A DNA stretch of 64,000 nucleotides from positions 62,001 through 126,000 of the forward strand of contig JARHVB010000008.1 of assembly GCA_029222685.1 (NCBI GenBank), given 5' to 3'. The position numbers were made by a program, and so were the translations under genes. A model generated the notes under the pieces. That model was not told the DNA's origin and ran no database searches. It saw only the letters and a list, made by a program, of their open reading frames with translations. This DNA is from Terripilifer ovatus. Its GTDB lineage: Bacteria > Pseudomonadota > Alphaproteobacteria > Rhizobiales > Beijerinckiaceae. This document shows positions 24,984-62,386 of this stretch, piece by piece. Each line of letters opens with the position of its first letter. The first letter of the stretch is position 1.

Positions 24984-26102
24984 TCACGCCGCCTTACCGG
25001 GCTTCAGCACGCCGCGGCGGATCTGGTCTTCCTCGATGGATTCGAAAAGCGCGCGGAAATTGCCCTCGCCGAATCCTTCATCGCCCTTGCGCTCGATGAA
25101 TTCGAAGAACACCGGCCCGACCATATTGGCCGAGAATATCTGGAGCAGGATGCGCGCCTCGCGATTCTCCACCACGCCCTCGCCATCGATCAGGATGCCT
25201 GAGCGCGTGAGGCGGGCGATATCCTGGCCATGGCCCGGAAGCCTGCCCGCGACGCGCTCGTAATAGGTCTGCGGCGGCGCCGGCATGAACGGCAGGCCGC
25301 CAGCGCGCAGGCCCTCGACAGTTTCGAAGATGTCACGGCAGCCCATGGCGATGTGCTGGATGCCCTCGCCTTTATATTGGTGCAGATATTCCTCGATCTG
25401 GCTCTTCGCATCGGCGGATTCATTGATTGGAATGCGGATGCGGCCGTCGGGACTGGTGAGGGCGCGCGAGAACAGTCCCGTCATCTTGCCCTCGATGTCG
25501 AAATAGCGGATCTGGCGGAAATTGAAGATGCGCTTGTAGAAATCCGTCCATACATCCATGCGGCCGCGGTGCACGTTGTGGGTCAGATGATCGATGTAGA
25601 AAAGCCCCCGGCCTTCGGGATGCGGATCGCGCTCACCGAGCCAGGTGAACTCCGCATCGAAGGCCGAGCCCTTGTCGCCATAGGTATCGACGAAATAAAG
25701 CAGGCTGCCGCCGATGCCGCGCACGGCCGGCACGTCGAGCGTCTTGCTGCCATCGGCCGGCTCATAGGGCTCGGCGCCGTTGGCCACCGCCCGCTCATAG
25801 GCATGCCGGGCGTCGACCACGCGAAACCCCATGGACGGAACGCTTGGCCCATGCTGTGCCGCGAAGCGTGCCGCCTGGCCGGCCGGATCGACACTGACAA
25901 GATAGTCGATATCGCCCTGGCGATAGAGCGTGCTGCCGTTGCTGCCATGGCGCGCCACCACCGAAAAACCCATGAGCCTGAACAGGGCGTGCAGTTTTTC
26001 AGGGTCTGGATGGGCGAATTCGACGAAGGCAAATCCATCGGTGCTGGCCGGATTGTCGGCCGAAATAGCGGCGGGGGGCGCACCGTGCGGAAAAGGTCCC
26101 AT
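24984..26102 (-). CDS. hppD: 4-hydroxyphenylpyruvate dioxygenase
   Basis: 372 residues from ATG 26102, with GGAGG seven bases upstream. Fe(II) ligands of the family are at H172 (DHLTHNV), H250 (IQHIAMG) and E334 (FFEFIERKG), and the GFGEGNF segment near the C-terminus that lines the active site is present. It converts 4-hydroxyphenylpyruvate to homogentisate in tyrosine catabolism. Homogentisate dioxygenase and maleylacetoacetate isomerase are not in the window. Divergent from an Lrp/AsnC gene that probably regulates it. Confidence 0.95.
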   Translation of the reverse strand: MGPFPHGAPPAAISADNPASTDGFAFVEFAHPDPEKLHALFRLMGFSVVARHGSNGSTLYRQGDIDYLVSVDPAGQAARFAAQHGPSVPSMGFRVVDARHAYERAVANGAEPYEPADGSKTLDVPAVRGIGGSLLYFVDTYGDKGSAFDAEFTWLGERDPHPEGRGLFYIDHLTHNVHRGRMDVWTDFYKRIFNFRQIRYFDIEGKMTGLFSRALTSPDGRIRIPINESADAKSQIEEYLHQYKGEGIQHIAMGCRDIFETVEGLRAGGLPFMPAPPQTYYERVAGRLPGHGQDIARLTRSGILIDGEGVVENREARILLQIFSANMVGPVFFEFIERKGDEGFGEGNFRALFESIEEDQIRRGVLKPGKAA

Positions 26103-26238
26103 CTCATCCTCCGAAAGCTATGTTGGAACCTCAGTTAAGCAAAAGCATCCCGCAAAGTGCTTGCAAAGCCGGAATGGAAATGGCTCTAAATGCGTGGTTC
26201 GTGCATAAAAATGCTCTTTTCAAGAGAGATCATGCAAG
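26103..26238. promoter_or_regulatory. hppD / Lrp divergent control region
   Basis: 136 bases, clearly AT-richer than the flanking genes, separate the two divergent genes. An inverted repeat CTCTT-TTC-AAGAG is at 26214-26226, just before the Lrp start, and could be an operator or part of an autoregulatory site. Lrp/AsnC proteins next to a divergent catabolic gene commonly control it and themselves. No binding site is proven. Confidence 0.45.
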
Positions 26239-26709
26239 ATGGACGCATTCGATATCCGAATCCTCGCGGCCCTGCAGCGCGACGGGCGGGCCAGCAACCA
26301 GCAGCTCGCAGAAGCCGTCTTCCTGTCGCCCTCGCAATGCTCTCGACGCCGGACCGTGCTGGAAAACAACGGAACCATCCGCGGCTATTACGCGGGCCTG
26401 GACCCTTCGGCCCTGGGCCTGACGGTGACGGCGCTGATCCAGGTCACGCTCGCCAGCCACAACCCCAACACATCACGCGACTTCAAGGCGCTGGTCGAAC
26501 GCGTGCCCGCCATCCAGGAGGCCTATGCGGTGACGGGCGACGCCGACTATGTACTCAAGGTCAATGTGGCCAACCTGAAAGCCCTGTCGGCCCTCCTGGG
26601 CGAAGTGCTGCTGCCCCACCCCAGCGTCGCCCACGTGCGCTCCAGCGTCGTGCTCGACACGCTGAAGAGCGGCGTCGAACTGCCGCTCGATGCTTTGGAG
26701 CAGTCCTGA
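26239..26709 (+). CDS. Lrp/AsnC-family transcriptional regulator
   Basis: 156 residues. An N-terminal helix-turn-helix (DAFDIRILAALQRDGRASNQQLAEAVFLSPSQCSRRRTVLENNGTIRGYYAGLD) is followed by the RAM ligand-binding domain (VPAIQEAYAVTGDADYVLKVNV, then VRSSVVLDTLKSG). Both parts match the AsnC family. The position divergent from hppD suggests control of tyrosine catabolism with an aromatic amino acid or derivative as effector. Confidence 0.92.
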   Translation: MDAFDIRILAALQRDGRASNQQLAEAVFLSPSQCSRRRTVLENNGTIRGYYAGLDPSALGLTVTALIQVTLASHNPNTSRDFKALVERVPAIQEAYAVTGDADYVLKVNVANLKALSALLGEVLLPHPSVAHVRSSVVLDTLKSGVELPLDALEQS

Positions 26710-26715
26710 TCGCAC

Positions 26716-27735
26716 TCAATCGCAGCCGCGAACACCGCTGCCCGGGTTCTCCAGAACAAAAGGACCGAGCTGCGAGGCGGCCCTGTCGACGAAACGGCTG
26801 TCGAAGAGCTTCGAGTCTGGTAGATCGGCAGAAAGCAGCTTTTCATTCCGGTACCAAGCAACGACATCCCGCAACGCCTGCACGTTGACGGTGCCGTTGA
26901 CGCGTCTTGATCCCCAGAAATGCTTGAGCAGGTCAGCGTTATCGACGACTCGCGTACGCAACATGATGTCGGCAATCTCCTGGCGATTGCTGCCATTGTG
27001 GTATGCCTGACAAAATTCACGAACCGCCTTGAACATCGCGTAGAAAAACCCTTCGGCGGCTTTCGGCTTCTCCTTCGCCCAGTCCGTGTTGATCAGCGTG
27101 ACCGCCATGGTCATGTTCGGCAGGACATCGTCGATCGACAAAAGCGGCAGCGCCACGCCCTGTTCCTCAAGCTGATAGCTGATCGGGGTGATGGCTATCG
27201 CCGCATCGATGGCCTTGTTTGAAAATGCCGCCGACAATTGCGTGAACGACACCACTTTGGTTTCGACGTCATTGAGATTCAATCCGGCGGTCTGAAGCAG
27301 CTTGTCGAGTTCGTACGATAGCGTGGATCCGGTTGCATTGGTGGCGACGACCTTGCCCTTCAGGTCGGCCAGCGTTTTGACGGTCGAAGACAGGTCCTTT
27401 CTCACCATGAGCGTGTGGCCCAATGGCGTCGAGGCCCGGTCCGCAACAATGGCTACGGGAAAGCCCCTCGCCAGAGCATTGAAAAGCCCGCCCTGCAGAC
27501 CGCCTTCCAATATCTGGATTCGATTGGTCGACAGCATCGGCAATCCAACGCTCACCGATTGGATAGGACTGAGCTCGACCTTCAGCCCCTGTTGTTTGAA
27601 GTATCCTTTTTCCTCGGCGATAACCAGGGGACTGGACACCATGGCCGGCACCCAGCCGATGTTGATAACCTCCTGAGCACTCGCAGCTGATACAAAACAG
27701 GCTGCAAACGAACCGATCAAACCGAACTTGAACAT
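26716..27735 (-). CDS. NMT1/SsuA-type periplasmic substrate-binding protein
   Basis: 339 residues. A signal peptide (MFKFGLIGSFAACFVSAASAQ) is followed by a periplasmic binding fold: INIGWVP, PLVIAEEKGYFKQQGLKVEL, ADLKGKVVATNATGST, DAAIAITPISYQLEEQG. The family serves ABC transporters for nitrate, sulfonates, taurine, thiamine precursors or aromatic acids. No ATPase or permease gene is next to it. It is the last gene of the minus-strand aromatic cluster, so a ring-containing ligand is a reasonable guess. Confidence 0.88.
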   Translation of the reverse strand: MFKFGLIGSFAACFVSAASAQEVINIGWVPAMVSSPLVIAEEKGYFKQQGLKVELSPIQSVSVGLPMLSTNRIQILEGGLQGGLFNALARGFPVAIVADRASTPLGHTLMVRKDLSSTVKTLADLKGKVVATNATGSTLSYELDKLLQTAGLNLNDVETKVVSFTQLSAAFSNKAIDAAIAITPISYQLEEQGVALPLLSIDDVLPNMTMAVTLINTDWAKEKPKAAEGFFYAMFKAVREFCQAYHNGSNRQEIADIMLRTRVVDNADLLKHFWGSRRVNGTVNVQALRDVVAWYRNEKLLSADLPDSKLFDSRFVDRAASQLGPFVLENPGSGVRGCD

Positions 27736-27851
27736 GAAGCGCCGCTGTTCTGCCGGTCATATTGACCGGAGCCTGCGATCGATAGTCCGACGGCAGATGC
27801 GGAATATTGCTCATTCTCTGGATGAGCTTCTCACCTGTGCCGATTGCACTG

Positions 27852-28616
27852 CTAGCCAATATCGATCAGGAGATCATATCCCTCGATACAGACATTGTAA
27901 GTCTTCAACGGGATAAGGCAGGGCCTGGCCATGGGCCTGCCGGTCGGCACATGAAACTGGCCGAAATGAGCCGGGCATTCGACGATATCGCCCTGTAATT
28001 CGCCTTCTGCGGCCAGATCGACCTCATCGTGCGTGCACATTGCGTCGGTCGCGTAATAGTTGCCGTCTATGTTGTAAACGGCCAGAATTTTCCCTTCGAT
28101 CTCGACCCTTGTGATGGTCCCCGTCTTCAGATCATCGATCGAACACGCCTTGATGAACTGGATCATAGCCGGCCGATCCTCGTCGGCCGGCGCCTGCTCG
28201 TGGTCGAAAATATCATCGTATCGCGTCCCGGCCCTGCTGTAGATTTCCCACCAATTGCCATCCATGTCGTTGAGCAGGAACGACCGGAACTCTTCCGGAC
28301 CTTCGACAGCCTCAACGGCCGCAAGTTGCCATTCCTCGGCCGCTGCGACAGCCGCTGCATAGGCAGCTTCAACTGCCTGGCTCGACTCGAGTCTGAGAGC
28401 AAAGCGGTTTTGCTTCTCCTGTGGCTGTTTGAACGCGCCCGCACCGATGCAGGCAATCAGCCATTCGCCGCCGAGCCACACCCAGCAAACTCGTTTCGAC
28501 ATCCGGACACAGTGCAGGCCCAGGAATTCGCGGTAGAAGCGCTTTGTCACCTCGAGATCACGGCATTCCAGCGTCCCATGGGAGAACGATTCAATTTCGA
28601 AATGCACGCCCGTCAT
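27852..28616 (-). CDS. VOC-domain protein fused to a Rieske [2Fe-2S] ferredoxin
   Basis: 254 residues from ATG 28616, which overlaps the stop of the upstream VOC gene as ATGA. Residues 1-140 are a vicinal-oxygen-chelate (glyoxalase/extradiol dioxygenase) domain (GTLECRDLEVTKRFYREFLGL, then MDGNWWEIYSR). Residues 150-254 are a Rieske ferredoxin with C194-x-H196 and C214-x-x-H217 binding the cluster, ending KTYNVCIEGYDLLIDIG. Rieske ferredoxins usually pass electrons to a separate oxygenase; here one is joined directly to a VOC domain in an uninterrupted frame. No terminal Rieske oxygenase or reductase is adjacent. Likely a ring-modifying enzyme or its electron carrier. Confidence 0.85.
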   Translation of the reverse strand: MTGVHFEIESFSHGTLECRDLEVTKRFYREFLGLHCVRMSKRVCWVWLGGEWLIACIGAGAFKQPQEKQNRFALRLESSQAVEAAYAAAVAAAEEWQLAAVEAVEGPEEFRSFLLNDMDGNWWEIYSRAGTRYDDIFDHEQAPADEDRPAMIQFIKACSIDDLKTGTITRVEIEGKILAVYNIDGNYYATDAMCTHDEVDLAAEGELQGDIVECPAHFGQFHVPTGRPMARPCLIPLKTYNVCIEGYDLLIDIG

Positions 28617-29131
28617 CGAACAATCTCCTCCGACACGTATTCTTTTGTGCCGTTCAGCCCGTTGGCGTAAGAGTTCGCTTCCGGGCGGGATTCGACCTCC
28701 CACCAGTTGGTGGAGATGTCCTCCAGATAAAAACTGTACGAACCGTGATTGATTGCCGGCTTCTGGATGCGTCGGATTCCGTACTCATCCTTATGTTGGA
28801 CGGCAGCGTGGTAGGCCTTGTCGACCTCTTCATTACCCGGAATGCCGAACCCCCAATGATTGTACATGTTCTGGGGCTTATCGATCTGCACCACCTCCCT
28901 GATGGAAAGGATCCAATAGGCATTGCCGTTCGACCGATCTGACGCGTGCCTGGCAAGCAGGAGACTGTCGTTGACTTTGACAGTCCTGAACCCGAAGAAC
29001 TTCTCGAGAAAGAGTTTCGTTTTGTTCAAGTTGAGCGTCACCAGCATGCCGCGATCAACGGCAATCGGCTTGAATATGGGTGACTTGCTTGCGCCCAATC
29101 CTGTCCTGGTCATGTCTGCCAAAGTCAACAT
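28613..29131 (-). CDS. VOC-family protein (glyoxalase/dioxygenase superfamily)
   Basis: 172 residues from ATG 29131 (an in-frame GTG at 29158 is less likely). FKPIAVDRGMLVTLNLNKTKLFLEKFFGFRTVKV and LEDISTNWWEVESR are VOC-domain hallmarks, and the NWWE segment matches the same place in the fused protein downstream. The two VOC domains are therefore probably paralogues that pair as a heterodimer. Translationally coupled to the VOC-Rieske gene. Confidence 0.82.
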   Translation of the reverse strand: MLTLADMTRTGLGASKSPIFKPIAVDRGMLVTLNLNKTKLFLEKFFGFRTVKVNDSLLLARHASDRSNGNAYWILSIREVVQIDKPQNMYNHWGFGIPGNEEVDKAYHAAVQHKDEYGIRRIQKPAINHGSYSFYLEDISTNWWEVESRPEANSYANGLNGTKEYVSEEIVR

Positions 29132-29159
29132 CGTCGCGTCCCTGCAGTTTGCGATCACA

Positions 29160-30019
29160 CTAAATTCGGTGTGCCTTGACCTCTACGTGAAGCTCCCCCA
29201 GCTGCGGGCATGACGCGCTTATCCAGTCGCCCGGCACAACCGGACCGACGCCTGCCGGCGTTCCTGTAAAAAAGATATCGCCGGGGTGCAGCGTGTAATA
29301 GGACGAGGCGAACTCGATGAGCTTGGCGCAATTGTAGATGAGATTTTTGGTACTCGACTTTTGCCTCGTGACGCCATTCACCGTCAGCTCGATCGCCAGA
29401 TCGTCGGGATCGGCTATCTCATCGGCCGTCACCATCCACGGACCGATGGGCGAATACCCATCCAGCGATTTGCGAAAGCTTCGATCTTCCGGGCCACGCA
29501 CCGTCATATCCAGGCCCATGCAATAGCCTGCGACATGTTCAAGAGCTTTCTCCAGCGGGATATCCGTTCCCGGCTTGCCGATGATCATCACCATCTCCAG
29601 CTCGTGCTCATTCAGCTTCTCCCTGAAAGCAGCGGGATGGCTTCAGAGGCGCCGATGATCGACGAATTGGCCTTGAGAAATATGCCGGCGGCCTGAATGC
29701 CGCGATGGGCTTCGATCGCGTTGCCCGGACGTGAAGCCATTTCGGCGATATGGTCGTGATAGTTCGTCGGTGCAGCCATCACCTTGGAAAAACGCGCCAC
29801 GGGAGGAAGCAGTTTGACCTGCGATAGATTTATGCCCGGTGTGGCCTGCGCCGCTTTCTGAAGGGCCTCGGCAGTGTGAGGCAATGCGGCGATCAGCGCA
29901 TCGCCCATCAGGTCGTATCGCGCCGACCTGCGAATGGCGTCCTGCACCGGAGTTACGTCATAGACCACGTCGCCGACGACGACGCCAAGCCGATCTTCGT
30001 TAAACCTGCAAAGCTTCAT
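29160..30019 (-). pseudogene. Fumarylacetoacetate-hydrolase family gene split by a frameshift
   Basis: Starts at ATG 30019 (MKLCRFNEDRLGVVVGDVVYDVTP). The N-terminal half runs to a stop at 29612, reading KVMAAPTNYHDHIAEM and FLKANSSIIG. The rest continues in another frame with NEHELEMVMIIGK, GYCMGLDMTVR, YSPIGPWMVTADEI and FFTGTPAGVGPV, which are classic FAH-fold motifs. Joining both gives a normal 285-residue FAH-family hydrolase. A single missing base around 29621-29640 explains the break. The family includes fumarylpyruvate hydrolase, the last step after gentisate ring cleavage, which fits this cluster. It may be a real lesion or a sequencing error. Confidence 0.85.
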
Positions 30020-30068
30020 CTTCTCCACCAAGTCTCTTGAAACGCTCGGCCTCGTCCCCGGAACCGGT

Positions 30069-31046
30069 TCATTCCGGCTTCAGATCGGCGATCTCCGCCA
30101 TCTTCGCGAACTGCTCGTTCTGCCGTTGCAGAAACGCCACGGCTGCCTGCGGCGACGCATCGTCGGCGGCGATGATGCCGAGATTGTCGAAGAGCTTGCG
30201 CGTTTCCGGAAGCCTGGCGATCTGCCCGATCTCCTTCGACATGCGCTGGATGATCGGTTCGGGCGTGCCGCGCGGCGCCAGCAGCATGACCCAGGCTTCG
30301 AATGAACCAAATTGCGGATAGGTTTCGATCACTGCAGGCACATTCGAAATGGCCGGAAACCGCTCGCTGCCCGTCACCGCCAGCGCCGGCAATCTGCCGT
30401 CTTTCACGAAGGGCAGCGCCAGCGCCGTGCCCTGCAGATGCAATTGGGTGTTGCCGGCCAGGAGATCCTGAACCGCCTGGTTGGGGTTCACATAGGGTAC
30501 CATCGTCAGATCGATGCCGAGCGCCCGCATCAGATAGATCGAAGCCGCTTTCGCTGAAGCGCCCTCGTAGGCAAGGAAAACCTTACCGGGATTCTTCGCG
30601 TTGTAAGCGATCAGGTCCGGCAGAGTGCGGAATGGCATGTCGGGATTGGTCAGCACGATATAGGGCGCGCGGTTGAGAAGCGCGACCGGCTGAAAATCCT
30701 TGTCCGGATCGTAAGACAGGTTTTTGATCGTGTATTTATTGACGATGAGCTGCGACAGGCTCGCCAGCAGAAATGTGTAACCATCGGGATCCGATCGCGC
30801 CGCCGCCGATGCGGCAATGGTGCCCGAGCCGCCGGCCCGGTTGGTGATCACCACGCCCTGGCCGAGATTCCTGGAAAGATGTTCCGAATAGCTGCGGATG
30901 GTTGCGTCGGGCCCGGAGCCCGCAGCGGAGGGAATGATGATTTCGATGACTTTGCGACGTGGCCATTCCTGCGCCGTGGCGGTGGTTGCGGCAGCGACTG
31001 CCGCGACGACCACGACCTGGAACAGGCCTGCAATTGCCTTTTTCAT
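30069..31046 (-). CDS. Bug/TctC-family periplasmic tricarboxylate-type binding protein
   Basis: 325 residues from ATG 31046, preceded by GGGAGG. A signal peptide (to TTATAQ) is followed by the Bug fold: WPRRKVIEIIIPSAAGSGPDATIR, VVITNRAGGSGTIAA, DPDGYTFLLAS, APRGTPEPIIQRM. These proteins scavenge carboxylates and aromatic acids and may work as orphans without a cognate TctAB, as here. Its place inside the gentisate-type cluster suggests an aromatic carboxylate ligand. Confidence 0.92.
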   Translation of the reverse strand: MKKAIAGLFQVVVVAAVAAATTATAQEWPRRKVIEIIIPSAAGSGPDATIRSYSEHLSRNLGQGVVITNRAGGSGTIAASAAARSDPDGYTFLLASLSQLIVNKYTIKNLSYDPDKDFQPVALLNRAPYIVLTNPDMPFRTLPDLIAYNAKNPGKVFLAYEGASAKAASIYLMRALGIDLTMVPYVNPNQAVQDLLAGNTQLHLQGTALALPFVKDGRLPALAVTGSERFPAISNVPAVIETYPQFGSFEAWVMLLAPRGTPEPIIQRMSKEIGQIARLPETRKLFDNLGIIAADDASPQAAVAFLQRQNEQFAKMAEIADLKPE

Positions 31047-31089
31047 ATTGCTATCCCTCCCAGGATGTCCCGTCTATTGAATGCGATTT

Positions 31090-32124
31090 CTATTGCTGCT
31101 CTTCACGCAGCAGATCGAGCCGTGCATAGAGTTCCCTGTCGGTCATCTGAAAGATCGAAGCCGAGGGCGATGCCGCCATATGCGTCGCCCAACGCCAGTG
31201 CGGAATGGTGAAGACGTCGTTCTTCTTCCAGGCGATCTTACGGTCGCCGACGGTCGAATGCCCCTCCCCTTCGGCGACCACACAGACACTGCTGTAGGTG
31301 CCCCGCCTCGGCCTCGTTTCCACGCCCTTGGCGAGATGCAACAGACGGCAATCCATCGTCGGCATCACCGCGCCGCCCGTCTGCGGATTGACGTACCGCA
31401 TCAGCGTCGATCCGTCGGGGGAGGCCGACATGCTCTCGATGGCGCGCATGGCTGCTTGCCAGGAATATCTGAACTTCGGCGAATAGGCGGGGCTGGCGGC
31501 AGTCTGGCAATCCATCATCCCCGCCTCGTTCCACCCGTTACCGCCACCGGAGGCGGCAAGCGCATTGGGCGGCGCCCTGTCCTTACCCGGCTCGTAGAAG
31601 AACGCATCCACATCGAACCTGACGAGCGGCACATCGAGACCGTCGAACCAGACGGCGCGATGGCCCGTGTTGTTGACATGCCCATGCCAGGTCCATGCCG
31701 GCGTCAGGATGAGATCGCCCGGCCGCATTTCGCAGCCCTGGCCGTTCACCGACGTGACCGCCCCCTCCGATTCCAGAATGAACCTGATCGCCGCCGCCGT
31801 ATGCCGGTGCGGATCGGCGCTCTCGCCGGGCTCTATGATCTGCAATGCGCCGGTCATCGACCCGGTCGTGATCAGCCTGCCCCCCAGTTCAGGATTGGCC
31901 ATCACTAGAGCCCGCCGTTCGGCATGTTCCATGGGAACTTCCTGGACGGCGCGATCGACCAGCGGCCGCATGGTCTGCCATGGCCAGTGCATGGCATTAT
32001 CCATCGGTTGCGGTTCGCGTGAGGCGATCGAATGGAAGCGCAGCCAGAGCGGCTGGACGTTATGCTCTTCGAGCAGCCCGACCAGTCCGCTGTTGTCGTG
32101 AGCCGAAGGTGTGGCGACAGTCAT
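31090..32124 (-). CDS. Gentisate 1,2-dioxygenase-like double-cupin enzyme
   Basis: 344 residues. The N-terminal cupin has the Fe ligands DPHRHTAAAIRF (H106, H108) and W-x-HGHVNNT (H147), as in gentisate, salicylate and 1-hydroxy-2-naphthoate dioxygenases. The C-terminal cupin (RRGTYSSVCVVAEGEGHSTVG) lacks a full metal set, as in the family. It likely cleaves the ring of gentisate or a related hydroxylated aromatic acid between the carboxyl- and hydroxyl-bearing carbons. The gene sits in an operon with an FAH-family hydrolase that would split the product. No maleylpyruvate isomerase is present. Substrate inferred. Confidence 0.88.
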   Translation of the reverse strand: MTVATPSAHDNSGLVGLLEEHNVQPLWLRFHSIASREPQPMDNAMHWPWQTMRPLVDRAVQEVPMEHAERRALVMANPELGGRLITTGSMTGALQIIEPGESADPHRHTAAAIRFILESEGAVTSVNGQGCEMRPGDLILTPAWTWHGHVNNTGHRAVWFDGLDVPLVRFDVDAFFYEPGKDRAPPNALAASGGGNGWNEAGMMDCQTAASPAYSPKFRYSWQAAMRAIESMSASPDGSTLMRYVNPQTGGAVMPTMDCRLLHLAKGVETRPRRGTYSSVCVVAEGEGHSTVGDRKIAWKKNDVFTIPHWRWATHMAASPSASIFQMTDRELYARLDLLREEQQ

Positions 32125-32166
32125 GCGTCGGACCTCAAGTATCTGGTGGCTGAAAGCGGCAGAAAG

Positions 32167-32463
32167 CTAGCGCGGCTCCGCATCGACGAGGATGAAACTG
32201 GCGCGCGAGCCGGTATTGCGAATACGGATAGCCTGCTGATACTCCTGCGAATAATACCAGCGCCTGGCCTGTTCGGCGGTTTCAAATTCGAGGATGGACA
32301 CCACCTCCGGCAGTCCGCGCCCCTCAAGCAGAATATTGTTACGGCTGACGGTCAGATATTTGCCGCCATATTTTTTCATGCTGGCCATGGCCAATGTCCG
32401 GTACTCGTCACGGAAAGACGAATCCCACAGTTCCAGCCGTTGAAAGATCAGATAGACCGCCAT
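32167..32463 (-). CDS. DUF1330-like small protein, copy 1
   Basis: 98 residues from ATG 32463, with GGGAGGG upstream. AVYLIFQRLELWDSSFRDEYRTLA, GGKYLTVSRNNILLEG and the EFETAEQARRWYYSQEYQQAIRIR pattern match DUF1330 (dimeric alpha-beta barrel). Very similar to the DUF1330 gene at 33644 on the other side of the LysR gene. First gene of the seven-gene minus-strand cluster. Dimeric alpha-beta barrel proteins of this type often serve as small monooxygenases or isomerases. Function unknown. Confidence 0.85.
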   Translation of the reverse strand: MAVYLIFQRLELWDSSFRDEYRTLAMASMKKYGGKYLTVSRNNILLEGRGLPEVVSILEFETAEQARRWYYSQEYQQAIRIRNTGSRASFILVDAEPR

Positions 32464-32576
32464 CGCGCCCTCCCAGACGCCCGGTCTTACCACTTTGGAA
32501 GAACGCCAATAGTCCGCCCCGATGCAACGGATCGTTTCATTTTTGTGCATCGTGTCGCCGGCGGCCGCAGCCGAAT

Positions 32577-33491
32577 TCACGCCAGCATGGGGACCACACG
32601 CTTTTCAAGGAACGACAGAAACGCTCGTGATCGCGGCGTGACGCTGCGGCGATTGGGATAGAGCACGCTGACCGGCGCGCTGACGATCGGCTTCCATGAC
32701 GGCAGAAGGCGGCGGACGCTGGCATCCGCCTGCCGCGTTTTCACCAGCCAGACGGGCAGAAGCGCGATCCCCAATCCGGCTATGGCCGCATCCAGCCGCA
32801 CGAAGGGATCGTTGACATCGAGCCGTGTCCTGCCGACATCGACGCGCACTCTCTTCTTGCCTTCGCCCTTAGCATCCTCGGAGAAAATCCAGGTGTTGCG
32901 CTCGGCACCCGCGAATGATCCGAGCAGGGAATGGTGCACCAGATCGTTTGGATGTTTCAAGACGGCGGCGGATTTAAGATAGCTCGCGCTGGCGAACAGC
33001 CCATAGGCCACGTCGCCGAGGCTTTTGGCGATCATGCTGGTCTCTTCGAGTACACCGACCCGGACGACAAAATCGAACGCCTCCTCAACCGGGTCCACCC
33101 TTCTGTTCGTCAATTCCAGATCGATCTGGATATCGGGATGGGCGGCAAGGAATTCGCCAAGAATGGGCGACAGAATGAAATGCCCGAAGGTGAACGGCGT
33201 CGCCACTTTCAACCGGCCTCGTTCCACACCCTGCAACGTTGCGACGGCGGCTTCGGCAGTTTCTATCTCGCCGGCAATGCGCTGGCAGTGCTCGAACAGG
33301 ATGGCGCCTGCCTCCGTGACCCGGAAGCGCCGCGAAGACCGTTCCAGTAGCCGCGATGAAAAGCTGCTCTCGGTTTTGACGATGGCGCGACTGACAGTCG
33401 CCTTCGGCAAGCCCAGCACGCGGGCGGCGGCGGTGATGCCGCCGCATTCCACGACCTTCGCAAAGATCAACAACAGCTTCGGGTCTATCAT
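32577..33491 (-). CDS. LysR-family transcriptional regulator
   Basis: 304 residues from ATG 33491 (MIDPKLLLIFAKVVECGGITAAARVLGLPKATVSRAIVKTE), the usual LysR N-terminal winged HTH. The effector domain follows, with LKVATPFTFGHFILSPILGEFLAAHPDIQIDLELTNR and GLGIALLPVWLV. It lies between the two divergent DUF1330 genes and probably controls both transcripts of the aromatic cluster. Effector is likely a pathway substrate. The 152-base gap to the plus-strand DUF1330 gene holds the probable operator; I cannot pick a clear T-N11-A site. Confidence 0.92.
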   Translation of the reverse strand: MIDPKLLLIFAKVVECGGITAAARVLGLPKATVSRAIVKTESSFSSRLLERSSRRFRVTEAGAILFEHCQRIAGEIETAEAAVATLQGVERGRLKVATPFTFGHFILSPILGEFLAAHPDIQIDLELTNRRVDPVEEAFDFVVRVGVLEETSMIAKSLGDVAYGLFASASYLKSAAVLKHPNDLVHHSLLGSFAGAERNTWIFSEDAKGEGKKRVRVDVGRTRLDVNDPFVRLDAAIAGLGIALLPVWLVKTRQADASVRRLLPSWKPIVSAPVSVLYPNRRSVTPRSRAFLSFLEKRVVPMLA

Positions 33492-33643
33492 GCACCGCCT
33501 CCCCCGCCGCCAGTTTATGGGCCGGCAGCCGGTCTGGCTATGGCTTCGCGCCAATCGTTTCCCGCCTGAAACGTTGCGTTGCATTGCGGCAGACTATTGA
33601 CGTTGCACCGACGTGATAAGACCGGCCCAATCGGGAGGTTGTC

Positions 33644-33967
33644 ATGGTCGCTTATCTCTTCATGGAACGGCTTGAACTATGGGACGCCAGTTTCCGCGAC
33701 GAATATCGCGCGCTGGCAGCTCGAACCACCGCCCTTCATGGCGGCAAATATATCAGCGTCAGCCGCAATCACATTCTTCTGGAAGGCGCCGGCGTTCCCG
33801 ACGTGTTGTCCCTGGTCGAATTCCCGACGCTCGGAGCCGCGCAGGAATGGTATCGCAGCGCCGAGTATCAGAAGGCGGTCAAGATCCGCAACACAGGCTC
33901 GCGCGACCGTCTGCTGCTGTTCGAGGCTTCGGCGCCTGCCTATGCCATAGCAGCCGGCGCCACCTGA
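33644..33967 (+). CDS. DUF1330-like small protein, copy 2
   Basis: 107 residues from ATG 33644, with GGGAGG upstream. It is near-identical in layout to copy 1 (YLFMERLELWDASFRDEYRALA, GGKYISVSRNHILLEG, EFPTLGAAQEWYRSAEYQKAVKIRNTGSRDRLLLFE). It has a longer Ala-rich C-terminus. Divergent from the LysR gene and 43 bases before the flavin monooxygenase. The two copies look like a duplication placed on either side of the regulator. Confidence 0.87.
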   Translation: MVAYLFMERLELWDASFRDEYRALAARTTALHGGKYISVSRNHILLEGAGVPDVLSLVEFPTLGAAQEWYRSAEYQKAVKIRNTGSRDRLLLFEASAPAYAIAAGAT

Positions 33968-34010
33968 GACTTAAATTCTCCCTCCCCTTTTTTAATTAGA
34001 TCGGCATCCA

Positions 34011-35240
34011 ATGTCTGTGATCATCGTTGGCGGCGGCATCGGCGGGTTGAGCCTGGCTCTTGCGCTCTTCAAGGTCGGCGTGCCCTGCCGCATCTATGAG
34101 GCGGCGGCGGAGATCAAACCGCTTGGCGTCGGCCTCAACCTTCTGCCCCATGCGGTGACGGAACTGGGCAAGCTAGGCTTGCTCGATCAATTGCTGGCCT
34201 TGGGCGTCGAAACCAGGGACGTCAGCTTTTTCACGGCGCACGGACAGCTCGTTCATCGCGAGGAACGTGGCCGCCACGCGGGCTATACGGCGCCGCAGAT
34301 TTCCATGCACCGCGGCGATCTGCATATGACCCTGCTGCAGGCAGTTATTGATCGGCTCGGCGAAGATGCGGTTCACCTCGGTCATCGCTGCGTTTCCGCC
34401 GATCAGGACGCGTCGTCGGCAACAGCACACTTCCTGACGCCGGGCAACCGCGCGGTGAGCGCCAAGGGCAGCGTCGTCATCGGCTGCGACGGCGTTCACT
34501 CGGTCATCAGAAAGCAGATGTACCCGGACGAAGCCGGCTATCGCTTTCACGGCACCGTGCAATACCGCGGCGTAACGGTCTCGCAGCCGTTCCTGACCGG
34601 CAAAAGCATGGCCTACGTCGGCACGCCGGAGACAGGCAAGCTCGTCGTCTACCCGATCAGGGAGAATGTCGACACCGAAGGGCGGCAATTGATCAACTGG
34701 GTCGTCGAAGTTGCCAAGGAGGATTGCGGCGTCCGCGACTGGAACCGGCGCGCGGGTTATGACGATTTCATCGATCTCATGTCGGACTGGTCGTTCGACT
34801 GGCTTGACGTCCCGGCGATGATCCGCAACGCCAGCTCGATTTACGAATATCCGGTCGTCGATCAGGATCCCCTGCCCGCATGGACCGACGGACGCATCAC
34901 CCTGCTCGGCGACGCCGCCCATCCGATGCTGCCGCGCGGATCGAACGGTGCGGCGCAGGCGATTATCGACGGCAATACGCTGGCTCAGATGCTGGCGACA
35001 GACAGCGATCCTTTGCGGACGTTGAAAGCCTACGAGGAGAAAAGACTGCCTGCCACGGCACGCATCGTCCTGACCAACCGCGAGCAGGCGCCCGATGCGA
35101 TTCTCGGCGTCGTCGAACAGCGAACGGGCGGCCGGCCGTTCGCGAAACTGGAAGATGTGATTTCGCAAGAGGAGGTCGCGCAATGGCAGGACTCCTACAA
35201 GTCCATCGCCGGCTTCAGCATTGCCCAATTACAGAAATAG
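34011..35240 (+). CDS. FAD-dependent aromatic monooxygenase (salicylate/3-hydroxybenzoate hydroxylase type)
   Basis: 409 residues. The dinucleotide fold starts at residue 3 (IIVGGGIGGLSLALAL), with the GCDGVHS-type DG motif (VVIGCDGVHSVIR) and LLGDAAHPMLPRGSNGAAQAIIDG as the GD motif. This is the group A flavoprotein monooxygenase pattern, close to PhzS and 3-hydroxybenzoate 6-hydroxylase. A ring hydroxylation would make a dihydroxybenzoate such as gentisate for the cupin dioxygenase of the same cluster. Transcribed with the plus-strand DUF1330 gene. Confidence 0.9.
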   Translation: MSVIIVGGGIGGLSLALALFKVGVPCRIYEAAAEIKPLGVGLNLLPHAVTELGKLGLLDQLLALGVETRDVSFFTAHGQLVHREERGRHAGYTAPQISMHRGDLHMTLLQAVIDRLGEDAVHLGHRCVSADQDASSATAHFLTPGNRAVSAKGSVVIGCDGVHSVIRKQMYPDEAGYRFHGTVQYRGVTVSQPFLTGKSMAYVGTPETGKLVVYPIRENVDTEGRQLINWVVEVAKEDCGVRDWNRRAGYDDFIDLMSDWSFDWLDVPAMIRNASSIYEYPVVDQDPLPAWTDGRITLLGDAAHPMLPRGSNGAAQAIIDGNTLAQMLATDSDPLRTLKAYEEKRLPATARIVLTNREQAPDAILGVVEQRTGGRPFAKLEDVISQEEVAQWQDSYKSIAGFSIAQLQK

Positions 35241-49241: not shown

Positions 49242-49598
49242 CTACCTTCTGTCGGTCGGGAGGGAGGTCGGAGGATCCGGGCGCTCGGACACCTCGTCGT
49301 CATCGTCGGGCACTTCGGCAGCAGCGACAGCCGCGTCCCGCTTGCTTTTGTCGTCCCACACGGCTGCGAAGCAATACGAGCCGACGACGCTGACCGCGAA
49401 CGCGATCAAGGCGAGGGCGATCTGCTGATGCAGCGCCGTATCCGCTCCCCACACGATCAGGTACTGGACGTTGCCGGCGCAAAACAGCAGCGACAGGTAG
49501 ATGACCGGGCGCCGCTTGTCCCAGTTCGAGTTGCCGAACAGCCGCTCTTCGTGGCCCGCCAGAACGCCGGCGCTATGCCGATGGCGGCGAGAGTGCAT
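49242..49598 (-). CDS. Holin-like small membrane protein
   Basis: 118 residues from ATG 49598, overlapping the end of the endolysin gene by 26 bases. Two transmembrane helices (PVIYLSLLFCAGNVQYLIVWG and IALALIAFAVSVVGSYCFAAV) are followed by an acidic cytosolic tail (EVPDDDDEVSERPDPPT). Position between endolysin and spanins, plus size, indicates a holin. The sequence family is not certain. Confidence 0.7.
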   Translation of the reverse strand: MHSRRHRHSAGVLAGHEERLFGNSNWDKRRPVIYLSLLFCAGNVQYLIVWGADTALHQQIALALIAFAVSVVGSYCFAAVWDDKSKRDAAVAAAEVPDDDDEVSERPDPPTSLPTDRR

Positions 49599-50172
49599 TC
49601 TGGAACACTCCGTAATAGCCGGCGATCGTCGCAGCCTTGTCCGCGCCGTTGATAATCGTCCGCGCCGGCACCGGCCGTGCGCTCGCCGGCGTGAAGAAGT
49701 CGCCGAGCTTCTTGCCGGTGAACCAGCCCTCGCTCATGCCGAGGATCATGATATCAGCGGCATGCTGCGGCTCCCTGGCGAGTTCCGGATGATTGACGAA
49801 ATCGACGCCGAGCTCCTTCGTCGCCCGGCTGTAATTGATGAACCATGTGCACTGGACGAAGCCACGGCCGTGATACTTGGCGCCGTCGCCGACATGGATG
49901 TTGCCCATCTCCTTCGCCCGCTTCGGATTCCGGCCGGTCGGGCCGTAGTTCTTCTCGAAATAGGCATAGCCTCCGAGTTCGTCGATCGGCTGCATCGTGA
50001 AGGCGGTTTCGTGACAGGCTGTCGCCAGCGGATAGGCTTGGAAATGCCTCGGCACGTTCCGCGCCTCGTAGGCGTCGAGGATGATGTTCATCCCGTCGAC
50101 CTGCGGTTGCGACAGCTCGCCATGAAACAGGCCGACGCGAACCGTTGTGAAGAAATGTTCACGGTCGATCAT
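49573..50172 (-). CDS. Phage endolysin, glycoside hydrolase 19-like
   Basis: 199 residues from ATG 50172. ACHETAFTMQPI near residues 52-63 carries the catalytic Glu, and KYHGRGFVQCTWFINYSRA near 98-116 carries the family's substrate-groove motif, both GH19/chitinase-like endolysin features. It degrades peptidoglycan for host lysis. No signal peptide, so it depends on the holin. First gene of the lysis block after the long fibre. Confidence 0.88.
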   Translation of the reverse strand: MIDREHFFTTVRVGLFHGELSQPQVDGMNIILDAYEARNVPRHFQAYPLATACHETAFTMQPIDELGGYAYFEKNYGPTGRNPKRAKEMGNIHVGDGAKYHGRGFVQCTWFINYSRATKELGVDFVNHPELAREPQHAADIMILGMSEGWFTGKKLGDFFTPASARPVPARTIINGADKAATIAGYYGVFQNALSPPSA

Positions 50173-50300
50173 GGAAATCTCCAGACTTCGGGCAATAAAA
50201 AAGCCGCCACAGGAGCGGTAGGAATATTGTGAAGCCGCCCTGCGGCGCTATCGCGCTGGCCATTACAGGGAGTACAGCGTTCTCCTTCAGTTGGCGACTG

Positions 50301-53300
50301 TTACGCCACCACGGCATCGATCAGAAACGGCGCATCTATCGCCACCTGATCCGCCGCCAGCCCGGCTCCGATAAACGAGTAGTGGATGGCGTCCCAGGTA
50401 TTGATAGCCAACCAATCGCCGTCATCATTAGCGGCCGATACGCACCGCGCGAAGTCCACGAGCGGGTCTCCCTGTCCGACAGCCCAGGTCCGCAGCCATC
50501 CGTTCTTTGACGCGCCCAAGGATAGCTTGTCCGACCGAGGCGGTGCGGTCCCCCATACCGGGATAGCACCACGAGCCACGATGGCCGCCCGGATGAGCGG
50601 ATTGTTCGTCTGGAACGTGGCGAGGTTAGCCGCGTCGGACCCTGCCAGGTTGTCGAGATTGGTCCCAAGACACACCAGCACATAGGCCGGGTTGAATAGG
50701 TTGAGGTCAATGTCGAGACGTGTGAGGAAGTCCGTGGTCTGGCTGCCTCCTCGCGCAGAAATGATAACATCGCCCCTGCCGCGCATGGCTTCCACAAGAT
50801 GCGCGAAGCCCCGGTTCATGTTGTCGCCAAAGTCTGTGATGCTCTCCGCGTTGCTGTCGCCTACGATCAGCAAATGCAGGTTCTGCTGCACAGTGGCAGT
50901 GTAGTGAACACGGTTGGTAATGATGTCGCCGGCAGCGCCTGAACCAGATACATAGCAGATGCCCATGCGACCCCAGCCTCGGCCGGAGAAATTGGATTGG
51001 TACTCGCCATCGGTCAGCACACAGGAGACGCGGGTAATCGTATCCGTGATGGTAAAGATATTTACGTTCTTCACCTTCTCCAGGCTGACCATGTAATCGC
51101 GATTCGCAACCAGCGTGAAAGGGATTGCCTTGGAGATCGTAGAACCCGGAGTTGTACCCACCGTGCTTGGTGCACTCGCTCCGCCGTTCCAGCCATAGAA
51201 CCGCATGACCGCTGCGCTCGCCCCGGCCGACCCGTCGATGATCGCTAGCGTGCCGTTGTTGTAGACCCCCGTGTCGATGCCGTCGAAGCCGATGCCCCAT
51301 ACGGCCGTAGGCACATGCAGGTTGACGCGCCAGGACACCTTACGCCGATCGAGCGCTGATGGGTAGGCGTAGCGCGCGAACGTCGTATAGCCGCCGGCCG
51401 CCGGCGAGCGCAGGCCGTCAGACACAGTCCAACCATTCAGCGTCCAGTTGGCTGGCGTCGTAATACCCGGAAAGGTCGTGCGTGTGATGACCGTTGCCTT
51501 GCGCATCTGGTCTGCGCCGACTTGCTTGGCGGTCTTCGGCACCTTGAGGATCGGCCGGAACATGTAGTTGAAGCCGACCGTCGTCCATGTGCCCGCCAGG
51601 AAGTTCGGTGCGCCGATGGATATCCCAGGCTGTCGGCTGTTGGCCGCAAGCTGCACGCGCCCCGTGCCGCAACGAAGCCAGACGATCCAGTCCGGGTCCG
51701 CAGACACGGCCTCATCGAAGTAAACCTCTTGCCGGCCCGTCTGCTCAACCGTCACTGCGATGCTGGCCACGGTCTGGCTTGCCGAGACCTGATAATCGCC
51801 GATGCCGCCCGGCGTGCCGGTGAGTTGCTTGACGATATAGCTGTTCGCCGTGACGCCGGCACCGCTGATGCGTTGGCCGATTGCGAGAACACCGGCCGTC
51901 GCAGTGACCGTCATCGTCGTGGCGGCGATGCTCGCGGTCGTCGCAAACGTCGAGCCAACCGTAATGAACCTGCTGGCTTTCCAGACGCCGCCCGTTGCGG
52001 CGGGGGCGCCGGGGCTGTTGGGTTTCCAGAACTGCACTTCAAAGGTGCCGACCGTGTTGATGGTCATTTCAAGGCCAGCGACCAAGCAGGAGCGGCCTAC
52101 GGGCACATTGTTGGAGACGTAGACCTTGCCTGCGATTGGGTTGCCGGGAACCGTCGAGAGAGGCAGGCCCCACTTGATCGTGTCGAAGGGCGTGTTGGCG
52201 AATAGCGCCGCCTGCTGGGCCTGCAACTTGTTAGCACTCGTCTCCGTCTTGACGACGAAGGGGTTGGCGACACCGAAGCAGCCACGAAGGCGCTGGGTCG
52301 TCGCACCGAAAGCGACGTTCTGGCCAACCTGGGTGAAGGAAATATAATTGCCCGTCGTGGAACCCTCGACCGTCAGCAATGCGCCAGTGGCGTTACAACC
52401 AACTTCGACTGATGCGCCGGCCGGAACCCATATACCGGCCGAGAAATGCACGGAGCCCGCGCCGCCAACAGGCGTCCATGTCTGTGCACCGGTGGCTGTG
52501 ATGCTACCTGCTGGGAGGGCTTCGCTATAGATGACATCGTGCGAGCCATCGGGATTGGGAACGCTGACCTTGAGGGCAGCGGAGCCGTCGCCCAGGCTGA
52601 GAACATACACCTTGATCCATTGCAGGAAACCGGCCTTGCCGCTGGTCTGGTAGATCGCATGACAACGGCCTGCGGTTGCAGCAACGCCCGTGATGTTGGA
52701 TTGGCCGTACTCCACTACCGGGTCAACATAGCCGGCGAGAGCCCCATATGCGTTCGACGGGTCGGCTATGGCGGCAGATGCCGCCGCAGCCGTAGCAGAG
52801 TTTCCAGCGTTCGTTTCAGACGTAGCTGCATTCGTGGCTGAAGTAGCAGCGAAAGTCGCTGATGTAGAGGCGGCGGTCGCAGAACCAGCCGCCGCCGTAG
52901 CCGAGTTGTCGGCATTGGTAGCGGAAGTTCCGGCAGACGTCGCAGAGCCAGCCGCGGCGATGGCGGAATTGCCAGCGTTGGTCGCGGATGTCGCTGCTGC
53001 CGTCGCCGACCCCGTCGCAGCGCCGGCGCTCGCCGCCGCATCGCCCGCTTGGGTTGTCGCGATGCCCGCCTGGGTAAGTGCCGTCGAAGCTGAACCTGCC
53101 GCGGCATCGGCCGCGCCGTCAGCCGCAGTCGCCGCCCCAGCGGCCGCACCGGCTGCCGTAGCAGCATCGCCTGCTGAGGAACCGGCCGATGAAGCGGAAT
53201 CCGCCGCCGCGCTCGCCGAACCAGCAGCAGCCAAGGCAGACGCTGCCGCCGCGCCGGCGCTGTCCTCGACACCCTGAAGATTGATCTCTTTGAACCAGTC

Positions 53301-53486
53301 GTCAGGCGCGGCGTCGGACGGCTCCGCGGAAGTCTTCCGCAGAGCCAGCCAAAGCGCGTTATTGTGCTTCAGCCAGCTATCCTTGCGATACGGAACTTTA
53401 TCGGCGTCCCAGGTCGCCGAAACATACAGGCCCTTGTCGCCCTTGAGCGCAGGGATCAGGGAAGGCAGCGTCGGGGTGCTTGGCAT
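50301..53486 (-). CDS. Long tail-fibre protein with C-terminal SGNH esterase domain
   Basis: 1061 residues. The N-terminal 75 residues have a W-rich binding segment (YVSATWDADKVPYRKDSWLKHNNALWLALRKT). Residues about 75-245 are an Ala/Ser/Thr heptad-like region (SATNAGNSA type) as in lambda-type side fibres. A long beta-rich shaft follows, and residues from about 870 form an SGNH hydrolase: GDSN with Ser at about 878, GTN near 941 and D-x-x-H at D1032/H1035. Receptor binding plus de-esterification of a surface polysaccharide is likely. Confidence 0.88.
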   Translation of the reverse strand: MPSTPTLPSLIPALKGDKGLYVSATWDADKVPYRKDSWLKHNNALWLALRKTSAEPSDAAPDDWFKEINLQGVEDSAGAAAASALAAAGSASAAADSASSAGSSAGDAATAAGAAAGAATAADGAADAAAGSASTALTQAGIATTQAGDAAASAGAATGSATAAATSATNAGNSAIAAAGSATSAGTSATNADNSATAAAGSATAASTSATFAATSATNAATSETNAGNSATAAAASAAIADPSNAYGALAGYVDPVVEYGQSNITGVAATAGRCHAIYQTSGKAGFLQWIKVYVLSLGDGSAALKVSVPNPDGSHDVIYSEALPAGSITATGAQTWTPVGGAGSVHFSAGIWVPAGASVEVGCNATGALLTVEGSTTGNYISFTQVGQNVAFGATTQRLRGCFGVANPFVVKTETSANKLQAQQAALFANTPFDTIKWGLPLSTVPGNPIAGKVYVSNNVPVGRSCLVAGLEMTINTVGTFEVQFWKPNSPGAPAATGGVWKASRFITVGSTFATTASIAATTMTVTATAGVLAIGQRISGAGVTANSYIVKQLTGTPGGIGDYQVSASQTVASIAVTVEQTGRQEVYFDEAVSADPDWIVWLRCGTGRVQLAANSRQPGISIGAPNFLAGTWTTVGFNYMFRPILKVPKTAKQVGADQMRKATVITRTTFPGITTPANWTLNGWTVSDGLRSPAAGGYTTFARYAYPSALDRRKVSWRVNLHVPTAVWGIGFDGIDTGVYNNGTLAIIDGSAGASAAVMRFYGWNGGASAPSTVGTTPGSTISKAIPFTLVANRDYMVSLEKVKNVNIFTITDTITRVSCVLTDGEYQSNFSGRGWGRMGICYVSGSGAAGDIITNRVHYTATVQQNLHLLIVGDSNAESITDFGDNMNRGFAHLVEAMRGRGDVIISARGGSQTTDFLTRLDIDLNLFNPAYVLVCLGTNLDNLAGSDAANLATFQTNNPLIRAAIVARGAIPVWGTAPPRSDKLSLGASKNGWLRTWAVGQGDPLVDFARCVSAANDDGDWLAINTWDAIHYSFIGAGLAADQVAIDAPFLIDAVVA

Positions 53487-53830
53487 CAGGCTCTCGTGGG
53501 GTCAAATTCGACGAGCACGCGCACGGTTTCGCTCGACACGGTGGTGTCGCCGTCGGCGTCGTAAATCTCGTAGTCGAAGTAGAAGATGAGGACTTCGCCG
53601 GGGTTTGCCGGGCGCGGCCAGTTTACGGTCTGCGATGCGGGCTTGGAGACGATGACCCACAACTCTTCTTCGCCGGAAATCTCGACATCCAGGACACCGA
53701 GATCATCGTTGAGGGGCGAGCCGTCTTCCCTGCGGATTTGGCCCCGGCCCATCCATGTCGAGCCGGCCGGAAGATCCACCTGCCCCGCGAACGAGAAGGT
53801 GTCGCCGGCCTTGGTGCGGACACTCTGCAT
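53486..53830 (-). CDS. Small phage structural protein of unknown function
   Basis: 114 residues from ATG 53830. The stop codon overlaps the start of the long fibre as TGATG, so the two are translationally coupled. All-beta (QSVRTKAGDTFSFAGQVDLPAGSTWMGRGQIRR, ELWVIVSKPASQTVNWPRPANPGEVLIFYFDYEIYDADGD). The pattern resembles short beta-sandwich adaptor proteins. A larger open frame is antisense/shifted to the collar gene and is not used. Confidence 0.75.
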   Translation of the reverse strand: MQSVRTKAGDTFSFAGQVDLPAGSTWMGRGQIRREDGSPLNDDLGVLDVEISGEEELWVIVSKPASQTVNWPRPANPGEVLIFYFDYEIYDADGDTTVSSETVRVLVEFDPTRA

Positions 53831-53838
53831 CCGAGAGC

Positions 53839-54624: not shown

Positions 54625-54646
54625 TTCGGTGTCCTTTTGTGAAAAA

Positions 54647-55465: not shown

Positions 55466-55468
55466 GGC

Positions 55469-56377: not shown

Positions 56378-56395
56378 GATGCCTCGAAAATTGTG

Positions 56396-56758
56396 TCAGT
56401 AGATGATCGCGGGATCGTCGTATTCGGTCTCGACGACGCATTTGCGCACCGCGACGCCGCGCGTCATGCGGTCGAAGTCGCTCCGGATTTCGACAATGCC
56501 GGTCACGCCCGGCGTCTGCAGGATGACCTTCTTGATGACGGCCTCGGCGATATCGAGACGCGCCGGCCTCTGCCCCAGCGCCAGGCCGAACCAGTCGACG
56601 CCGACGTCGGCATCGAGGAACCACTCGCCCTTGTAGAAGGAAAGCCGCTGCCGCACATGCTGGCCGATGGCCTGGGTGTTGCGCGCCATGGCGAGATTGC
56701 CGGTCTCATCGAGGCCGATGTCGTTATAGGGGATGATGGCGATGCCGATACGGTCCAT
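56396..56758 (-). CDS. Baseplate wedge protein gp25-like (DUF2634 type)
   Basis: 120 residues from ATG 56758. LAMARNTQAIGQHVRQRLSFYKGEWFLDADVGVDWFGLALG followed by AEAVIKKVILQTPGVTGIVEIRSDFDRMTRGVAVRKCVVET matches gp25-like/DUF2634 baseplate wedge proteins. Upstream the frame runs into the palindromic repeat, so earlier starts are not used. Confidence 0.88.
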   Translation of the reverse strand: MDRIGIAIIPYNDIGLDETGNLAMARNTQAIGQHVRQRLSFYKGEWFLDADVGVDWFGLALGQRPARLDIAEAVIKKVILQTPGVTGIVEIRSDFDRMTRGVAVRKCVVETEYDDPAIIY

Positions 56759-56802
56759 GTCTGAGCCTGAGTGGGAGTGCGGCCGGATCATTGCGGCCTG
56801 AC

Positions 56803-56930: not shown

Positions 56931-56946
56931 ATACGCCGCAGCGCCC

Positions 56947-58463: not shown

Positions 58464-58479
58464 GGGTCAGACCAGCAAA

Positions 58480-62384: not shown

Positions 62385-62386
62385 GC

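Follow-up and report, generated by a model that had tools for sequence, protein, structure and literature searches.

What two VOC-family proteins and a Rieske electron carrier might do beside genes for aromatic ring cleavage is the question raised by a 64,000-nucleotide stretch of DNA from Terripilifer ovatus (assembly GCA_029222685.1, contig JARHVB010000008.1; "the window" below), which is part of contig 78 in a 7.2-Mb genome of 86 contigs. In one gene cluster of this window, a first VOC protein (VOC1) is followed by a second (VOC2) that is fused to a Rieske [2Fe-2S] ferredoxin domain. As the initial annotation had pointed out, the gentisate route leaves both the pair and the fused domain unexplained, and we know of no role in that pathway for the VOC pair, the Rieske domain, or the DUF1330 genes of the cluster. 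We favour, with about as much confidence as doubt, a reading in which VOC1 and VOC2-Rieske would together form a VOC oxygenase that is heterodimeric and depends on a metal, probably Fe(II), with its site at the interface and electrons fed by the Rieske domain, beside a gentisate-type core. The features on which this reading turns are the following.

28613-29131, minus strand: VOC1, assigned from alignments and homologues; R27 in place of His1, with H92, E145 and the conserved H129 kept
27852-28616, minus strand: VOC2-Rieske fusion, 254 residues, in a single continuous frame
28182..28616, minus strand: VOC2 domain of the fusion; His1 (H13) and Glu (E124) kept, R71 in place of His2
27855..28181, minus strand: Rieske [2Fe-2S] ferredoxin domain of the fusion; CTH-x17-CPAH motif intact, closest solved relative 2e4p (E 7e-24)

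Complementary ligand loss across the VOC pair

The proposed VOC-Rieske fusion was confirmed as one uninterrupted frame, and the VOC1 and VOC2 genes share 4 bases (the VOC2 start lying over the VOC1 stop), an overlap consistent with coupled translation. VOC1 matched no Pfam family at E values up to 0.01 and is placed among the VOC proteins by its homologues; its database matches numbered four, itself counted, in a search of limited sensitivity. Relatives of VOC2 are mostly stand-alone proteins of ~147 residues, and a Rieske domain was found, from length and precomputed Pfam domains, in two of 95 VOC2 database hits: the window's own entry and P0003, a metagenomic protein from a 1,410-bp contig that is 53% identical to the window fusion and has its CxH..CxxH motif intact. 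Because P0003 carries both domains too, the fusion is not an artefact of this assembly. A complete adjacent pair was detected in 23 loci besides the window, always in the order VOC1 then VOC2. This count, which underlies the neighbour statistics below, leaves out the window, L080 and L096 (which repeat the contigs of L011 and L018), and three pairs truncated at contig ends (L012, L045, and L019, the last from the same metagenome-assembled genome (MAG) as L015), whose ligands were scored where the column was present. Most VOC2-range matches, though not all (e.g. G045:C143 and G009:C56 were left out), were followed to wider stretches.

The three VOC metal-ligand columns (His1, His2, and Glu) were located in 105 VOC sequences from the loci, together with references, and the counts were retaken after two duplicated contigs had been removed and the window pair and the three contig-end-cut pairs added. 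Among VOC1 proteins standing beside a VOC2, His1 was absent from all 25 sequences covering the column, with His2 (26/26) and Glu (27/27) always present. Their VOC2 partners retained His1 and Glu in 27 of 27 cases and carried, at the His2 position, Arg in 21 and His in six. All three ligands were present in 49 of 49 unpaired VOC rows, a set that excludes L158-L163. Given these complementary counts, the sole complete ligand set common to all pairs consists of His1 from VOC2 with His2 and Glu from VOC1. Neither VOC1 nor VOC2 of the window alone holds a complete site, and the aligned residues indicate that their interface could hold one. BphC-type dioxygenases have their metal site within one domain, and the full His-His-Glu set in one domain of one chain that characterizes type I extradiol enzymes (BphC/XylE) was found in neither window protein.

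The same columns were scored in natural fusions. In eight VOC1-VOC2 fusions, the first half lacks His1 and the second lacks His2 (always Arg), two of the eight additionally lacking the second Glu. A reverse-order fusion family has His1 in its first half and His2 and Glu in its second half in 21 of 22 rows, the odd row being P0070, itself a VOC1-VOC2 fusion. In a tree read from its drawing, with support values unexamined and 25 of 114 VOC rows left out (four L080/L096 rows and near-duplicates), each of the two proteins groups with its counterpart in the VOC1-VOC2 fusions (VOC1s with the first half, VOC2s with the second), the branching is mirrored, and the reverse-order family is separate from these groups. 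Maize glyoxalase I was the top structural match for models of the fusions P0070 and P0073, tied with PcpA in the second, and these models, which represent relatives rather than the window proteins, display a PcpA-like two-domain arrangement. None of the profiles A3, A4, and A5 matched the PcpA sequence when PDB was searched up to E 1.

The window's genome also encodes a paralogous reductase-VOC1-VOC2 set on contig 2 (G000, L009:9003-11010), beside fatty-acid synthesis genes, and by eye the same setting is seen at L089, in another genome of the genus. A further pair, L014, lies on a 5.3-kb contig labelled as a Klebsiella pneumoniae MAG; given the Betaproteobacteria label of L035, which is almost its twin in the tree, this is possibly a mis-binned environmental contig. 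Across the class, VOC2-like proteins (E <= 1e-18) were found in one of 384 other genomes sampled (locus L101), and solely the window's own entry, among the matches listed from 150 relatives, covers both the VOC2 and the Rieske parts, so that broad conservation of the whole cluster was ruled out.

Electron-transfer neighbours

A reductase lies directly upstream of the pair in 18 of the 23 VOC1-VOC2 loci. The three that were scanned (L009, L015, and L089) have a C-terminal [2Fe-2S] domain together with an NAD-binding domain; the remaining reductases share 56-73% identity with that of L009. No Rieske-oxygenase match was obtained within 5 kb in any of these 18 loci (three oxygenase queries; several contigs end sooner), nor, with three queries, in the 64-kb window. 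The window lacks the upstream reductase; its Rieske domain, in which the cluster motif is preserved, forms part of the VOC2 chain. Both its family match (PF00355, 60.3 bits against a cut-off of 20.3) and its CxH-x17-CxxH motif identify this domain as a Rieske ferredoxin, and its closest solved relative, 2e4p, is a biphenyl dioxygenase ferredoxin. Unlike ferredoxins of the BphF/CarAc type, which are small proteins of their own that serve a Rieske oxygenase nearby, it is fused to VOC2.

Unpaired VOC genes were surveyed in the same way at 53 loci. An electron-transfer gene was present within 1.5 kb in 11 of them (six BenC-like reductases, four BphA4-like reductases, and one Rieske ferredoxin), compared to 6% of random anchors, and an FAH gene within 3 kb in 14, compared to 2%; this background is rough, as the anchors were drawn from the same fetched loci, some of which had been chosen for Rieske genes, and many loci are related. 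Ten of the 11 loci with a redox neighbour had no Rieske-oxygenase match within 5 kb, and a VanA-like oxygenase adjoins the single VOC of L020. At L082, from the window's genus, the order is NMT1, a His-His-Glu VOC, FAH, and a Rieske ferredoxin encoded on its own, which shares 52% identity with the Rieske domain of the window; this gene order is clearly akin to the window's. Overall, the recurring unit is a VOC protein with an electron-transfer protein; a solute-binding protein often joins them, and FAH sometimes does so where the VOC is single. A single VOC was also observed directly beside a BenC-like reductase at six loci (L020, L158-L161, and L163), with FAH within 3 kb in four of the six, and these may represent the electron-fed VOC system in a simpler form.

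Several observations weigh against reading the window pair as an electron-fed heterodimer. Fifteen of the 18 reductase-bearing pairs, counting the own-genome paralogue on contig 2, come from the window's genus (the remaining three are labelled Eremiobacterota, Devosia, and Xanthobacteraceae). The pairs nearest to the window in the tree (L011, L013, L014, and L035) have no reductase or ferredoxin match alongside, so that an electron need in the window's own branch rests on the two Rieske fusions. FAH was found within 3 kb of none of the 23 pairs, unlike in the window, and the window's genome holds no clear BphA4-type ferredoxin reductase (best match ~30% over part of larger frames); a BenC-like query gave 28% identity to a frame of 342 residues on contig 6. 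Six VOC2 proteins keep their own His2 and might hold a single-chain site, the structural models are of P0070 and P0073 and not of the window's two proteins together, and no VOC protein here matches a characterized enzyme well by sequence. Finally, a frameshift in the FAH gene of the cluster, described below, may mean that the operon is decaying.

The surrounding gene cluster

The remaining genes of the cluster are listed below in their order along the minus strand, followed by the two on the plus strand.

32577-33491, minus strand: LysR-family regulator, directly upstream of the operon and on its strand
32167-32463, minus strand: DUF1330 protein a, from a family scan; 58% identical to DUF1330 protein b
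31090-32124, minus strand: gentisate-1,2-dioxygenase-like bicupin, from a family scan and alignment to solved structures
30069-31046, minus strand: TctC/Bug-type solute-binding protein, from a family scan
29160..30019, minus strand: FAH-family hydrolase gene, with an N part (29612-30031) and a C part (29160-29594) and one frameshift near 29609-29630
26716-27735, minus strand: NMT1/SsuA-like solute-binding protein, 34% identical to its counterpart in the related L082 cluster
33644-33967, plus strand: DUF1330 protein b, from a family scan
34011-35240, plus strand: flavin adenine dinucleotide (FAD) monooxygenase of the PRK07538 subfamily, 546.7 bits against a cut-off of 400

Transcription on the minus strand thus runs LysR, DUF1330, bicupin, TctC/Bug, FAH, VOC1, VOC2-Rieske, NMT1, with gaps of 28-116 bases from DUF1330 to NMT1 except at the VOC1/VOC2 overlap. 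The gene families and their order agree with the initial annotation, apart from its single open FAH frame. The LysR gene does sit between the operon and the DUF1330-monooxygenase pair, as had been described, but it reads in the direction of the operon, which leaves that pair, with DUF1330 protein b preceding the monooxygenase, as the sole divergent part. The N- and C-terminal parts of FAH sit in different frames, the N part closing at a stop, and an intact relative aligns in two overlapping pieces (29827-29609 and 29630-29244); the interruption is one frameshift, which marks either a true pseudogene or an error of the assembly. No further split gene was apparent when the gene map of the window was inspected by eye.

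The cupin aligns over its full length to solved gentisate/salicylate dioxygenases (3nst, E 7e-55, residues 15-340) and contains the HRH and HGH motifs, which bind metal in these enzymes. It differs from gentisate 1,2-dioxygenase in scoring 262.1 bits against TIGR02272, below the curated NCBIfam cut-off of 442.1. The nearest solved structures of the FAD monooxygenase are 2rgj and 3c96, both of PhzS (281 bits; runner-up 106). Together, the cupin and the flavin monooxygenase have the appearance of an unremarkable gentisate-type core. The sequence of hydroxylase, cupin, and FAH proposed earlier is thus sensible as a core, although weakened by the interruption of FAH in this assembly. The isomerase reported as missing is indeed absent from the cluster, where no maleylpyruvate isomerase family was matched among the scanned proteins, but not from the genome: two maiA-type (maleylacetoacetate/maleylpyruvate isomerase) genes elsewhere score 249.7 and 234.3 bits, over the NCBIfam cut-off of 171.05. 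A route that bypasses the isomerase, with direct hydrolysis by maleylpyruvate hydrolase, is known as well.

The genome holds seven gentisate-dioxygenase-like cupins on seven contigs, the window's counted (E <= 1e-50). We examined 20 neighbourhoods of cupin relatives, namely the six own-genome paralogues and 14 matches in other genomes, these 14 being drawn from many more listed matches and not strictly the best of them (G027 and G016 were passed over). A VOC match was seen at none of the 20, and FAH was not matched within 8 kb of any of them (several contigs offer less than 8 kb per side); a Rieske match was found at L149 only, weak (25% identity) and within 8 kb, with none within 3 kb. Conversely, the fetched stretches of the VOC-pair loci contained no cupin match. 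Relatives that keep cupin, VOC, and Rieske genes together, whose absence the initial annotation had named as an outcome that would refute it, were thus not encountered among the loci examined. Because no VOC or FAH gene lies near any of the 20 cupin relatives, the full cluster is not conserved among the loci examined, and for the same reason the cupin seems to have joined the window cluster separately.

Other aromatic clusters were noted along the way. Eight mycobacterial or related loci within L047-L066 combine a gentisate-type cupin with a single VOC, and a shared pathway with the window was not accepted for these, since the cupin and its neighbour at L058, a dihydrodipicolinate-synthase-like gene recognized by eye, resemble the phenanthrene-type 1-hydroxy-2-naphthoate pair. 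At L081, L083, and L088, a flavin monooxygenase 48-50% identical to the window's occurs, by eye, alongside subunits of a ring-hydroxylating dioxygenase and a Rieske ferredoxin, joined at L083 and L088 by a UbiD-like protein; this is an aromatic-acid cluster that recurs in the window's genus. Beside the end of the operon, window positions 24984-26709 hold a 4-hydroxyphenylpyruvate dioxygenase gene (388 bits, cut-off 277) and a divergent Lrp-type regulator, and a standard hmgA lies elsewhere in the same genome. Farther away (49573-63809, minus strand), genes match families of contractile-tail phages, among them tail sheath, baseplate hub, virion structural proteins, endolysin, and tail fibers, and nine of ten scanned proteins have PHROGs matches. 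This region is a prophage or a tail-derived element, cut by the window end.

Proposed mechanism, rival explanations, and known systems

From the complementary ligand loss, the conservation of the pair, the fold class of the natural fusions, the recurrent electron-transfer neighbours, and the intact Rieske motif, we infer for this strain a heterodimer, iron, oxygenase chemistry, and an electron flow. One complete 2-His-1-Glu site would span the interface, with VOC2 contributing His1 and VOC1 contributing His2 and Glu, and the second site of the heterodimer would be degenerate. The Rieske domain on VOC2 would pass electrons to the interface site, either to bring the iron back to the ferrous state after oxidative inactivation, a service that catechol 2,3-dioxygenases receive from separate ferredoxins, or for turnover, and a ferredoxin tethered in this way would reactivate the iron efficiently. 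A passage in PMC3222310 describes extradiol-type enzymes as losing activity, possibly by Fe(II) oxidation, and ferredoxins as reversing this loss in vivo. Within the cluster, the FAD monooxygenase would hydroxylate an aromatic acid, the cupin would open the ring, and the FAH-type enzyme would hydrolyse the product, and the binding proteins suggest import of an acid. The reaction of the VOC pair is the least certain element of this scheme, the most likely one being that it oxygenates a substrate resembling hydroquinone or gentisate, or opens its ring; the gentisate-type neighbours and the PcpA-like fold point, with low confidence, to a para-dihydroxy aromatic. A broader proposal, which we regard as doubtful, is that of a class of multi-component VOC-fold oxygenases, in which an interface-iron heterodimer would receive electrons from reduced nicotinamide adenine dinucleotide (NADH) via a dedicated [2Fe-2S] partner (the upstream reductase in most pairs, the fused Rieske ferredoxin in the window) for a reductant-dependent oxygenation, as in Rieske oxygenases.

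A composite-site heterodimer could also be something other than an oxygenase, catalysing a glyoxalase-like isomerisation or a hydrolysis, for instance in place of maleylpyruvate isomerase, with the Rieske domain being structural or serving another enzyme. Isomerases do occur among VOC enzymes, maize glyoxalase I tops both fusion models (tied with PcpA in the second), and no isomerase family was matched in the cluster. However, the recurrent electron-transfer neighbours are of several unrelated types, the intact Rieske motif is fused in-frame, and isomerase-type genes are available twice elsewhere in the genome, and we consider this explanation unlikely. Alternatively, the Rieske domain and the VOC-adjacent reductases may serve unlinked Rieske oxygenases and owe their position to operon traffic in aromatic catabolism, the VOC pair then being ordinary extradiol-type or accessory proteins. 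This would agree with the usual role of VanB-, BenC-, and BphF-like proteins, which is to feed Rieske oxygenases, with the VanA-like oxygenase adjoining the VOC at L020, and with the lack of any redox neighbour at the pairs closest to the window. It is made improbable, in our judgement, by a covalent VOC2-Rieske fusion found twice and by the Rieske-oxygenase searches described above, which were negative within 5 kb for all 18 pair loci and for ten of the 11 single-VOC loci, as well as across the 64-kb window.

A standard gentisate (or salicylate-type) operon, in which the VOC genes would be dispensable passengers and the FAH frameshift a sign of decay, would account for the full-length cupin alignment with its HRH and HGH motifs, for the seven such cupins of the genome, and for the interrupted FAH gene. 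It is nevertheless very unlikely in view of the intact VOC1, VOC2, and Rieske frames with their conserved residues, and of the VOC1/VOC2 gene overlap, which suggests coupled expression.

To our knowledge, turnover by VOC dioxygenases requires no electrons from outside, and the metal sites described for them lie in single chains, in homodimers, or in chains of two domains. If the oxygenase reading proposed here is true, an obligate heterodimer whose subunits share one site and which brings an electron carrier of its own would extend the family by a mode of assembly, and possibly of reaction, and would give a function to protein pairs now labelled merely as VOC family. Searches of open-licence full texts gave no account of a VOC-Rieske fusion, or of a VOC oxygenase that is a heterodimer and comes with an electron carrier.

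Among the known systems compared, the type II hydroquinone dioxygenases HqdAB/PnpCD carry no VOC assignment that we know of. They resemble the proposed enzyme as two-subunit enzymes acting on a para-diol and differ from it, by the description in a passage of PMC3222310, in forming a heterotetramer of 38 and 19 kDa subunits. PcpA (2,6-dichlorohydroquinone 1,2-dioxygenase; PDB 4huz), which together with LinE makes up the type I hydroquinone dioxygenases, is one chain, whereas the window has two genes and a fused Rieske domain. Maize glyoxalase I (ZmGLX1; PDB 5d7z), the top match of the fusion models in a comparison of fold only, is likewise a single chain; it is Ni-dependent, uses a glutathione substrate, and has no redox partner. 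A passage in PMC5412262 describes its two similar domains as providing one functional metal site and one cryptic one. The ferredoxin-reactivated extradiol dioxygenases (XylE/XylT and the chlorocatechol 2,3-dioxygenase of P. putida GJ31) share with the proposed enzyme the principle of a ferredoxin restoring Fe(II) in a dioxygenase, as related in PMC3222310, citing Tropel et al. 2002. Systems of the XylT type have a [2Fe-2S] ferredoxin gene beside that of the extradiol dioxygenase, and the metal site of the dioxygenase, of the BphC type, lies in one domain. Their ferredoxin is, however, a separate protein of the chloroplast type, as stated for XylT in a passage of PMC6362003, whereas the window has a Rieske-type ferredoxin fused to a VOC protein that holds half of a site.

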